Shown one piece after another: positions 2 to 21,720 of a DNA stretch of 64,000 nucleotides. Positions within the stretch are counted from its first letter, which is position 1, and each line of letters begins with the position of its first letter. Source of the DNA: Gracilibacillus ureilyticus. Lineage in GTDB: Bacteria; Bacillota; Bacilli; Bacillales; Amphibacillaceae. The DNA is taken from the NCBI RefSeq assembly GCF_900111195.1, contig NZ_FOGL01000003.1, forward strand, positions 1 to 64,000. Direction: 5' to 3'. Under the pieces are notes generated by a model. It made no database searches and was not told the DNA's origin. It worked only from the letters and a program-made list of their open reading frames with translations. The position numbers were made by a program, and so were the translations under genes.

Positions 2-77
2 GGAGGATTAGCTCAGCTGGGAGAGCACCTGCCTTACAAGCAGGGGGTCGCAGGTTCGAGCCCTGCATCCTCCACCA
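2..77 (+). tRNA. tRNA-Val (UAC)
   Basis: Complete cloverleaf with acceptor GGAGGAT/ATCCTCC, anticodon TAC in the loop after CTGCC, a GGTTCGAGCCC T-arm and an encoded CCA end. It is the first of six tRNAs in one run; the cluster probably continues to the left of the window. Confidence 0.97.
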
Positions 78-82
78 TTTAT

Positions 83-158
<76 letters not shown>

Positions 159-174
159 CTTGCCTATAATACAT

Positions 175-260
175 GGAGGGATAGCGAAGTTGGCCAAACG
201 CGACGGACTGTAAATCCGTTCCCATCGGGTTCGTAGGTTCGAGTCCTACTCCCTCCACCA
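175..260 (+). tRNA. tRNA-Tyr (GUA)
   Basis: An 86-base tRNA with the long class II variable arm expected of bacterial tRNA-Tyr. Anticodon GTA, acceptor GGAGGGA/TCCCTCC and encoded CCA are visible. Confidence 0.97.
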
Positions 261-310
261 TTGTATATTTTAAAGCTCAGTGTATATAATAAGGTTATAC
301 ACTTTTTTAT

Positions 311-385
311 TGGGCTATAGCCAAGCGGTAAGGCAACGGTTTTTGGTTCCGTCATGCGTTGGTTCGAATCCAGCTAGCCCAGCCA
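311..385 (+). tRNA. tRNA-Gln (UUG)
   Basis: Begins with T as many Gln tRNAs do (TGGGCTA paired with TAGCCCA), anticodon TTG, encoded CCA. The closing pair of the anticodon stem (31-39) reads T/T instead of a Watson-Crick pair, a mild oddity. Confidence 0.95.
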
Positions 386-413
386 TTTTTTTATTTGAGT
401 CACAATAACATTA

Positions 414-489
414 GAGCCATTAGCTCAGTTGGTAGAGCATCTGACTTTTAATCAGAGGGTCGGAGGTTCGAATCCTCCATGGCTCACCA
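414..489 (+). tRNA. tRNA-Lys (UUU)
   Basis: Acceptor GAGCCAT/ATGGCTC, anticodon TTT, T-arm GGTTCGAATCC and encoded CCA. Confidence 0.97.
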
Positions 490-495
490 CTTTCT

Positions 496-568
496 GGGGC
501 CTTAGCTCAGCTGGGAGAGCGCCTGCTTTGCACGCAGGAGGTCAGCGGTTCGATCCCGCTAGGCTCCA
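496..568 (+). tRNA. tRNA-Ala (UGC)
   Basis: Acceptor GGGGCCT/AGGCTCC with a G-T pair at position 3 and anticodon TGC. Unlike the other five, the CCA end is not encoded (the 3' end is followed by TT), so CCA must be added after transcription. Last gene of the cluster. Confidence 0.95.
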
Positions 569-6883: not shown

Positions 6884-7053
6884 CTAAACACCTTTTTGGC
6901 TTGTATTACATAATCTTTTAGTAAGCCATTTTACAATATTTATTGCGCAGAAGAAAGTTTTCAAGTAAAATGGGGACAGTCATCATTTTTTGAAAAAATG
7001 GTGCTGATTATTCAAGAATAGAAAGGAGCATTGATGGTTTTCTGATTGATGAA

Positions 7054-7245
7054 GCGCCAGGGCTAAAAGAGGGAGTCTCTGATAGCTGACGAGGTGGGGG
7101 TTTATCGAACATGATCGGCGGATACCTCCCGGTTGGACATCATCTCAACCGATATGTTTTTGTTCGAAAACAAAAAGGCAACTTTTTGCACAAGAATAAA
7201 AACAAGATGATACAATCACACGAGAAAGGGGCAAAGAAACGCCCC
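7054..7245 (+). ncRNA. glmS self-cleaving ribozyme/riboswitch
   Basis: Directly upstream of glmS. The cleavage-site core reads A then GCGCCAGGGC (predicted cleavage between 7053 and 7054), followed by GCTGACGAGGTGGGG, by ATCGGCGGATACCTCCCGG, and the 3' part CACACGAGAAAGGGGC closes a GGGGC/GCCCC stem. These are the conserved pieces of the glmS ribozyme in Bacilli. Glucosamine-6-phosphate acts as cofactor for cleavage, which exposes the mRNA to RNase J1 and lowers GlmS. A separate hairpin at 6978-7005 lies just upstream and is unexplained. Confidence 0.95.
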
Positions 7246-20242: not shown

Positions 20243-20375
20243 ATTCAGGCATAATCCTGTGGGGTTGTGTCTTTTTTATAGATTTTGATGATGGATACCA
20301 TGATGTCTACATTGTCTTCAAAGATTCTGATGTTCGATTAGATTCCATCAAGTTTGAAAGTTAGATAAATAAGTG

Positions 20376-20408
20376 AAAAAAGAGATCTTCATTACAGAAG
20401 ATCTCTTC
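20376..20408 (-). terminator. Terminator of guaC
   Basis: On the minus strand: stem AAGAGATCTTC / GAAGATCTCTT followed by six T. It may also slow transcripts from the plus strand. Confidence 0.9.
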
Positions 20409-20419
20409 CACTTTATAGA

Positions 20420-21394
20420 TCAATCACCATTAAAAATCGAGTTTTTCACAACAACATAATCTACATGACGAATAGCATCAAGTGTGTTTCCTCCAGCGTA
20501 TGAAATAGAAGATTGCAGATCCTGTTCCATTTCTGTTAAGGTGTCCTGGAGTGAACCTTTATGCTCCACATGCATTTTTTTCCCTTCTACGTTCTTCTTT
20601 TCGCCTTTTTGGAATTCGGATGCGGAACCGAAGTACTCCTTATACAGCTTACCGTCTTTTTCGATGTTTTCTCCAGGTGATTCTTCATGTCCGGCAAAAA
20701 GCGAACCGATCATGACCATTGATGCACCAAAGTGGATAGATTTAGCGATATCACCGTGTGTTCTTATGCCGCCATCAGCAATAATCGGTTTCGTTGCTGC
20801 TTTGGCACACCAGCGTAACGCAGCTAATTGCCACCCGCCTGTTCCGAATCCTGTTTTGATCTTTGTGATACAAACTTTACCAGGGCCAATCCCCACTTTT
20901 GTTGCGTCTGCACCAGCATTTTCAAGTTCCCTTACCGCCTCCGGTGTACCAACATTTCCGGCAATAACAAAGCTTTTCGGAAGAAGTTCTTTAATATGCT
21001 GGATCATGTTAATAACTGCATTGGAATGACCATGTGCTATATCGATTGTGATATATTCAGGGGTAAGATTAGCTTCAGCCAACTCTTCGATAAATTGATA
21101 TTCCTCTTCCTTCACACCAACACTAATAGAAGCGTACAATCCTTTTGACTGCATTTCTTCTACAAATGATCTGCGTGTTTCTGGTTCAAAGCGGTGCATA
21201 ACATAAAAATAATTATTTTCAGCAAGGTAAAGTGCTATATTTTCATCTATAATTGTTTGCATATTTGCAGGGACTACAGGAAGCTTAAAACTGCGTCCAC
21301 CCAGTGTAACGGTGGTGTCACATTCAGAACGGCTGTTAACGATACATTTAGCGGGTATCAGTTGAATGTCTTCGTAATCAAATGTATTTTCCAT
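20420..21394 (-). CDS. guaC: GMP reductase GuaC
   Basis: A 324-residue TIM-barrel enzyme of the IMPDH/GMPR family that reduces GMP to IMP and ammonia with NADPH, returning guanine nucleotides to the purine pool. Signs: [20 protein letters not shown] at the N-terminus, the catalytic loop [17 protein letters not shown] with the active cysteine (about 180), [20 protein letters not shown] and [13 protein letters not shown]. No CBS domains, which separates it from IMP dehydrogenase. Start at 21394 follows AGGAGTG; the ATG at 21403 would overlap the ribosome site. It is expressed from a leader with a guanine riboswitch. Confidence 0.95.
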
Positions 21395-21432
21395 TATATA
21401 CACTCCTAATAATTGATTTAAAATTACAGATT

Positions 21433-21540
21433 AAAAAAATCCTGACTATAAATGGGTAGAATTTTTCCACCCATTCGTAGTTAGGATTTATCGGTTCCCA
21501 GTAGAGACTCTTAGACCATTATTCTAAGAATATACGAATG
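21433..21540 (-). promoter_or_regulatory. Guanine riboswitch with overlapping terminator (predicted ON switch)
   Basis: Minus-strand leader of guaC. Aptamer 21540-21472: P1 CATTCGTA/TACGAATG, P2 TCTTAGA/TCTAAGA with loop ATAATGG, J2/3 GTCTCTAC, P3 with loop ACCGATAAA, J3/1 with the specificity base C at 21480 (guanine type; adenine switches have U). The terminator 5' arm (21489-21469) contains all of the P1 3' strand and the P3 3' strand, and pairs with 21457-21437 over 19 of 21 positions, then seven T. Aptamer and terminator are therefore mutually exclusive, so ligand should promote read-through. Confidence 0.9.
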
Positions 21541-21720
21541 ATTTTTATAAATATTTTCTCAATCCAAAAGTAATTATAAACGAACTTTTATAAAAAGTAA
21601 ATAGAAAAATGTTCGTGTATTAGTTGAAAAAGGATCGGAATTCCAATTTATTTAATGAATTTGTGGTTTTTTCCTGTATTGAGAGGGGGCAGGAGAAAAT
21701 GTTGATGAGGTTTTTGAAAA
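21541..21720. other. Region between guaC leader and pepF
   Basis: Contains the presumed guaC promoter upstream of the riboswitch but no clear -35/-10 pair was assigned. A 60-codon open frame on the plus strand (21624-21806) has no family likeness and crosses the pepF terminator; I do not call it. Confidence 0.5.

Follow-up and report, generated by a model that had tools for sequence, protein, structure and literature searches.

GMP reductase converts GMP to IMP, and its gene, guaC, lies on the minus strand of the window analyzed here (the whole stretch of 64,000 nucleotides from Gracilibacillus ureilyticus contig NZ_FOGL01000003.1) behind an RNA that, judged from its sequence, looks like a predicted guanine sensor. 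The question raised by this locus is in which direction such a sensor would drive a gene whose product consumes GMP. The guaC gene runs from an ATG at 21394 to a stop at 20420 (20420..21394, minus strand) and its product scores 659.4 bits with TIGR01306 (cut-off 465.65); a ribosome-binding site, AGGAG, lies ahead of the ATG at 21403..21407, and a terminator-like hairpin is located 3′ of the gene at 20372..20412, both on the minus strand. Elsewhere the window holds a glmS ribozyme at 7042-7213 (plus strand; 101.2 bits) and six tRNA genes at 2-568 (plus strand).

The aptamer and the terminator ahead of guaC

The guaC leader matched RF00167 with a covariance score of 76.2 bits (cut-off 37), the purine aptamer occupying 21472..21540 on the minus strand with 20/20 pairs and ending 78 bases before the guaC ATG. 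It is built of P1 (21540-21533/21479-21472), J1/2 with the sequence UAU (21532-21530), P2 (21529-21523/21515-21509) capped by L2 AUAAUGG (21522-21516), J2/3 GUCUCUAC (21508-21501), and P3 (21500-21496/21486-21482), at whose L3 end an A.A mismatch, 21495/21487, encloses L3 CCGAUAA (21494-21488; 21487..21495 with the mismatch). J3/1 consists of A21481 and C21480, the latter being the specificity base at position 74 in xpt numbering. A C at position 74 is the rule for the guanine class (PMC11477304), and the window aptamer, with C21480 there, bears out an earlier, sequence-only reading of this DNA that had assigned it to that class. J2/3 of the form GUYUCUAC together with C74 was found in 15/15 guaC aptamers. 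The pair that closes P3 in the window is U-A, as in 13/15 guaC aptamers (U54-A72), whereas OFF switches have C-G there (32/33 OFF aptamers), so that selectivity among guanine, hypoxanthine and xanthine is not to be assumed. In addition, L2 and L3 of the window deviate from the usual AAUAUGG/CCGUAAA, and loop docking may be weaker as a result.

A terminator stem on the minus strand takes up, within its 5′ arm (21469..21489), the 3′ strands of both P3 and P1. Its 3′ arm, at 21437..21457, runs into a U tract of seven T at 21433..21439, with which it shares its final three positions. This agrees in its coordinates with the earlier claim that both strands are wholly contained in the 5′ arm of a 21-position stem, of which 19/21 positions are paired, with two mismatches; a simple terminator scan did not list the stem. 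The unconstrained fold of 21567-21433 is the terminator (-37.7 kcal/mol, z -4.1, attained by 0/200 shuffles), and the fold of 21567-21468, from which the 3′ part is removed, is the aptamer (-18.4 kcal/mol). Taken alone the aptamer fold is no stabler than shuffled RNA (z -1.15; 26/200 shuffles), and it is the covariance score, rather than stability, that supports the aptamer call. When the 39 bases after P1 were shuffled, 0/2000 hairpins attained -27.2 kcal/mol (mean -9.2, sd 2.4); the cross-pair count was less striking, the 16 cross-pairs being attained by 14/2000 of these shuffles. Energies calculated for the growing transcript kept the aptamer fold intact until about 20 nt past P1, beyond which the terminator fold leads, finally by 9.9-11.5 kcal/mol. 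The aptamer and terminator folds, as modeled, exclude each other. Translational control was considered and rejected, since the accessibility of the ribosome-binding site is alike in both folds.

Predicted direction of control

The sign of each purine switch was called from the strongest hairpin entering a T run (four T in a row, hairpin of -7 kcal/mol or better), taking its start relative to base 74. The guaC terminator starts 9 nt before base 74, which is the ON layout, and the same layout is seen at the U-type switch of a PbuE-like transporter gene in the same genome, which we take to be pbuE, where the terminator starts 10 nt before base 74. At the remaining C-type switches of this genome, located at guaA, at purE (both identified by NCBIfam) and at a third gene that is presumably an NCS2-type permease, the terminator starts 27, 173, and 59-65 nt after base 74, respectively, and by their sequence these three have the OFF layout. 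Among aptamers from 30 genomes of the family, 30/30 start the hairpin beyond P1 (lowest +13), in a sample that takes the best-scoring aptamer per genome and leans to ordinary switches. A further set of eight genomes joined the five aptamers of the window genome to all 42 listed for seven genomes that had been picked because they hold ON-type matches; of these 47, 32 were OFF, all of them C-type (32/42 C-type), and 15 were ON, comprising 5 U-type and 10 C-type aptamers, with 6 of the 10 before guaC. L232 was entered as ON by eye in this count. The terminator rule returned no result for L006, L170, L232, L190, and L024, and it did not class L173 or L037 as ON; by eye, L006, L170, L173, and L037 look ON.

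Within 330 nt after base 74 no further terminator-like hairpin was found in the guaC leader, and since the sole hairpin found there overlaps the aptamer, the bound aptamer would be expected only to favor read-through. The sequence-only reading had likewise held that guanine should turn guaC on, and the geometry found here is the one it implied. The majority of guanine switches described so far act in the opposite direction. From the arrangement of the leader, we consider it highly probable that this is a guanine-sensing transcriptional ON riboswitch. In the mechanism that we propose, RNA polymerase would make the aptamer before the 3′ arm of the terminator. If guanine is missing, the newly made 3′ arm would invade P1, J3/1, and P3, and the resulting terminator would stop transcription ahead of guaC; if guanine is bound, P1 would be held, invasion would come too late and the polymerase would read through, with the outcome that GMP reductase would be made when guanine is at hand. 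By our own estimate guanine binding cannot overturn the final lead of the terminator fold at equilibrium, and control should therefore be kinetic. Ligand binding, the sign in the cell, and kinetic control are what we infer for this leader.

The prevalence of OFF geometry among C-type aptamers, in the family loci as in the eight genomes, would favor an OFF switch here as well, in which the guanine-bound aptamer promotes termination as at xpt or guaA by way of an antiterminator that P1 disrupts. We regard this as improbable, given that the only terminator-like hairpin found needs the very strands that the bound aptamer holds and that a second hairpin was not seen in the 330 nt that follow base 74. 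A change of ligand is equally hard to credit: the aptamer might have kept its shape and lost its ligand or exchanged it, for example for hypoxanthine, xanthine, or a guanosine compound, as the U54-A72 pair, the unusual L2 and L3 of the window, and the pocket variants with new ligands described in passages of PMC9295807 would all allow, but the invariant J2/3 and C74 and the strong conservation of the riboswitch unit speak against it. The hairpin could finally be the terminator of the peptidase gene that precedes the leader on the minus strand, and overlap the aptamer by accident; that gene has a hairpin of its own with a T-rich tail (about 21764-21723, -20.0 kcal/mol), and the overlap of aptamer and terminator recurs before guaC in related leaders, so that we give this explanation next to no weight.

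Distribution of the guaC switch and the PurR boxes

A search for the same arrangement before guaC in other genomes, which the sequence-only reading had suggested as a check, found it in 14 further leaders (L006, L007, L008, L012, L014, L017, L019, L020, L025, L037, L041, L156, L166, and L168; L167 duplicates L017, L170 duplicates L006, and L169 is the window itself). In 13 of these, L156 being left out, aptamer and terminator are 83-88% identical to those of the window (77% in L041), while guaC third codon positions are 46-57% identical, the spacer ahead of the ribosome site 34-47% (shuffled baseline 42%), and the spacer 3′ of the promoter 53-75%. For most pairs, then, conservation of the riboswitch unit exceeds that of guaC third codon positions and of either spacer. 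Pair covariation within the 13 close guaC leaders was not above that of shuffles. Across 43 distinct ON leaders, before guaC and other genes, the P1 strand shared by the two folds pairs in both of them in 270/344 cells, only in P1 in 48 and only in the terminator in 26, a count that left out leaders without a script-found overlapping terminator; bases co-change in the three strands, e.g., from C-G-U to U-A-U. Six leaders of the Sutcliffiella group have three or four terminator mismatches, and the U tract of L006 is broken.

A strict regular expression found 9 guaC switches and was replaced by a broader pattern and by R1, a model built from 13 leaders. With R1, a full-strength guaC switch (at least 119 bits) was present in 11/80 named guaC loci, its own source leaders included, and 1/50 further guaC loci was positive, namely the congener L156. 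Among 398 genomes of the class, that of the window included, five had an R1 match of at least 125 bits, each before guaC. Within the genus the switch is rare (1/15 congeners whose guaC upstream region was compared). A decayed guaC switch is seen in L024 at about 1330-1440 (56 bits by R1), in which P1 and a terminator-like 3′ part are recognizable and J2/3 and J3/1 are not. In a tree of 110 GuaC proteins, from which L034, L112, and L113 (no usable reading frame) and L156 were left out, 14/15 switch rows, L024 included, grouped together (SH-aLRT 91, computed without bootstrap), with hosts from more than one family and a Paenibacillus record among them; L041, from Domibacillus, stood apart, and two switch-less congeners were placed elsewhere. 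Joint transfer of guaC and its leader from species to species would explain this most simply, and a mislabeled record may lie behind the cross-family group. Several congeners have broken guaC matches, in two overlapping pieces in G134 and G140 and with internal stop codons in G143, which may reflect sequencing error or decay; G134 has the guaC switch. In G038 (contig 12, near 338058) and G029 (contig 1, near 2248763) a purine switch lies beside guaC on the opposite strand, in divergent orientation.

Upstream of the aptamer on the minus strand, a pair of candidate PurBoxes spans 21578..21617, with CGAA at 21615 in CACGAACAT (21617-21609) and TTCG 31 bases on in AAAGTTCGTTT (21588-21578). This pair flanks a promoter-like site at 21573..21601 (minus strand; -35 TTTACT, 17 bases, -10 TATAAT; 10/12 matches). 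The promoter scan gave a total of 5 sites with 5.0 expected by chance, so that this one is supported by its position, with the PurBoxes on one side and the aptamer on the other. A CGAA/TTCG pair at a distance of 30/31 was present in 125/131 guaC upstream regions, at least two genomes being counted twice, as against 0.8% of shuffled ones; the upstream region of L041, though switch-bearing, lacks the pair. In passages of PMC8789054 the PurR operator is defined by paired CGAA/TTCG boxes, each box of 14 bp, with a 16/17-bp spacer, and guaC of B. subtilis is named as a PurR target. The boxes of the window have both the sequence and the distance (31) of such an operator.

PurR releases at high PRPP. 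It would accordingly block the guaC promoter unless PRPP is high, and expression of guaC would call for high PRPP together with guanine, the condition under which guanine must become adenine nucleotides. Guanine is probably, on this sequence evidence, one of two inputs to guaC, with PurR as its partner, and we lean towards a PRPP-AND-guanine gate on the gene. If the ON reading is right, one ligand would act with opposite signs on two opposed steps in one cell: guanine would lower guaA, which leads to GMP, and raise guaC, which leads away from it, and a futile cycle would be limited.

Relation to other purine switches

The sequence-only reading had likened the leader to the pbuE layout, with the 5′ arm of the terminator spanning P1, J3/1, and P3 up to L3, and this likeness held: the pbuE adenine riboswitch shares with the guaC switch both the course of the 5′ arm and an A.A mismatch at L3. 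The guaC switch differs from it in having C, not U, at the specificity base and in serving GMP reductase, not an efflux carrier. Passages of PMC7707468 describe pbuE control as kinetic and report a chimera that joined a base-74-to-U version of the xpt guanine aptamer to the pbuE platform. According to the same passages, the chimera failed until it was given a mismatch at the P3 pair beside L3 and an altered junction end of P2, for which making one pair C-G sufficed. The window aptamer has both features, the A.A at 21495/21487 and a canonical second P2 pair, C-G. They occur together in 8/9 classifiable distinct guaC aptamers vs 3/59 OFF aptamers (Fisher p 1.9e-7, with related sequences that are not independent); L233 and L237, whose P1 starts were mis-set, were left out of this count. 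In the other C-type ON switches the second P2 pair is C-G in 25/25 and the L3-side mismatch is found in 1/21, so that the mismatch is not required in every ON switch; 27/30 permease and oxidoreductase leaders are mismatched at 54-72. If our reading is right, the guaC switch would match in nature the engineered chimera of guanine aptamer and pbuE platform, and would show which aptamer changes accompany a reversed sign.

With the guanine-I riboswitch (RF00167; xpt, purE, guaA) the guaC switch has in common the aptamer fold, J2/3, C74, and the GG/CC docking bases of the two loops. The OFF control of guanine-I was not found in the window switch, whose predicted geometry is ON; its P3 has six steps with a mismatch at L3 rather than seven paired steps, and closes with U-A rather than C-G. 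Guanine-I is called OFF in passages of PMC9295807, where ON control is predicted for guanine-II, xanthine-II, and a nucleoside-sensing variant; guanine-II is there placed in Paenibacillus, mostly with phosphoribosyltransferase genes. The guanine-ON logic itself is thus not new. Guanine-II resembles the guaC switch in its predicted ON control and in keeping U22, U51, and C74, and is described in these passages with an inserted base in J2-3 and a changed J3-1. Compared with that text description, the window would have an 8-nt J2/3 and a 2-nt J3/1 if U54-A72 pairs; the two bases can pair, which would leave no insertion, and L006 has A.A there. The term 'GMP reductase' is absent from the main text of PMC9295807, no guaC riboswitch is described in the excerpts of PMC9430930, PMC4448311, PMC8789054, and PMC4223553 that were consulted, and searches of open-license papers on guanine/purine riboswitches and guaC turned up none. 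Tandem guanine/PRPP riboswitches, as described in passages of PMC5912903, combine guanine and PRPP signals on a purine gene, both sensors being RNA and guanine acting OFF, whereas at the guaC locus PRPP would act via PurR and guanine would act ON.

Outside guaC, R1 retrieves ON leaders of both types: those of the C type precede permeases (PF00860), FAD-dependent proteins (PF21688), and PbuE-like carriers, and those of the U type precede adenine deaminase and PbuE-like genes. In a tree of the 47 aptamers from the eight genomes, which includes L233 and L237 with mis-set P1 starts, a single branch separated ON from OFF (1 change against a shuffled mean of 12.8; SH-aLRT 99), and the ON side contained both U and C types, intermingled. 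When the tree was restricted to the 5′ half of these aptamers, which lies outside the terminator, 3 changes were needed (shuffled mean 13.0). A set of 103 aptamers, whose ON members had mostly been picked up through their resemblance to guaC, gave 1 change, and 2 with the 5′ half. These trees use 40-71 columns and the ON/OFF split on them is suggestive only; shared structural demands could mimic kinship of the ON aptamers. We therefore put forward only tentatively, and with slightly less than even confidence, that the ON purine switches of Bacilli form one aptamer lineage apart from the OFF guanine switches, in which the specificity base has changed between U for adenine and C for guanine according to the gene served; that the guaC switch shares a closer ancestry with the pbuE adenine switch than with the guanine switches found beside it in the window genome; and that together with PurR it forms a PRPP-AND-guanine gate opposing the OFF switch of guaA. 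If it is an ON switch, the guaC leader would also make it possible to test which trait of purine riboswitches is the more stable, the sign or the ligand.

Several members of the wider set deserve mention. C-type aptamers lie before FAD-dependent protein genes in L174, L175, L177, L178, L180-L183, L186, L187, L190-L195, L238, L239, L243, L244, L250, L252, L253, and L256; nearly all of them, though not L190, were called ON by script, PF21688 was found in the two genes tested, and the aptamers are possibly of the published guanine-II type. C-type ON aptamers also precede NCS2-type permeases in L171, L172, L173 (by eye), L176, L179, and L184, the permease being identified by PF00860 in L171 and by likeness in the other five. 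In L185 and L188 the ON switch ahead of a PbuE-like carrier has C in place of U as its specificity base, which may be a natural change from adenine to guanine. L234 and L237 (G156 contig 1, about 10.9-11.3 kb) form a divergent pair of C-type ON aptamers; a permease-like gene follows one of them, and a gene that we take to encode a 2Fe-2S xanthine dehydrogenase subunit follows the other. L200 and L226 are C-type aptamers of OFF geometry before genes that are adenine-deaminase-like by likeness to L189. In L257 a C-type ON aptamer, which may be the published 8-oxoguanine variant, precedes an amidohydrolase gene, presumably for a guanine or 8-oxoguanine deaminase.
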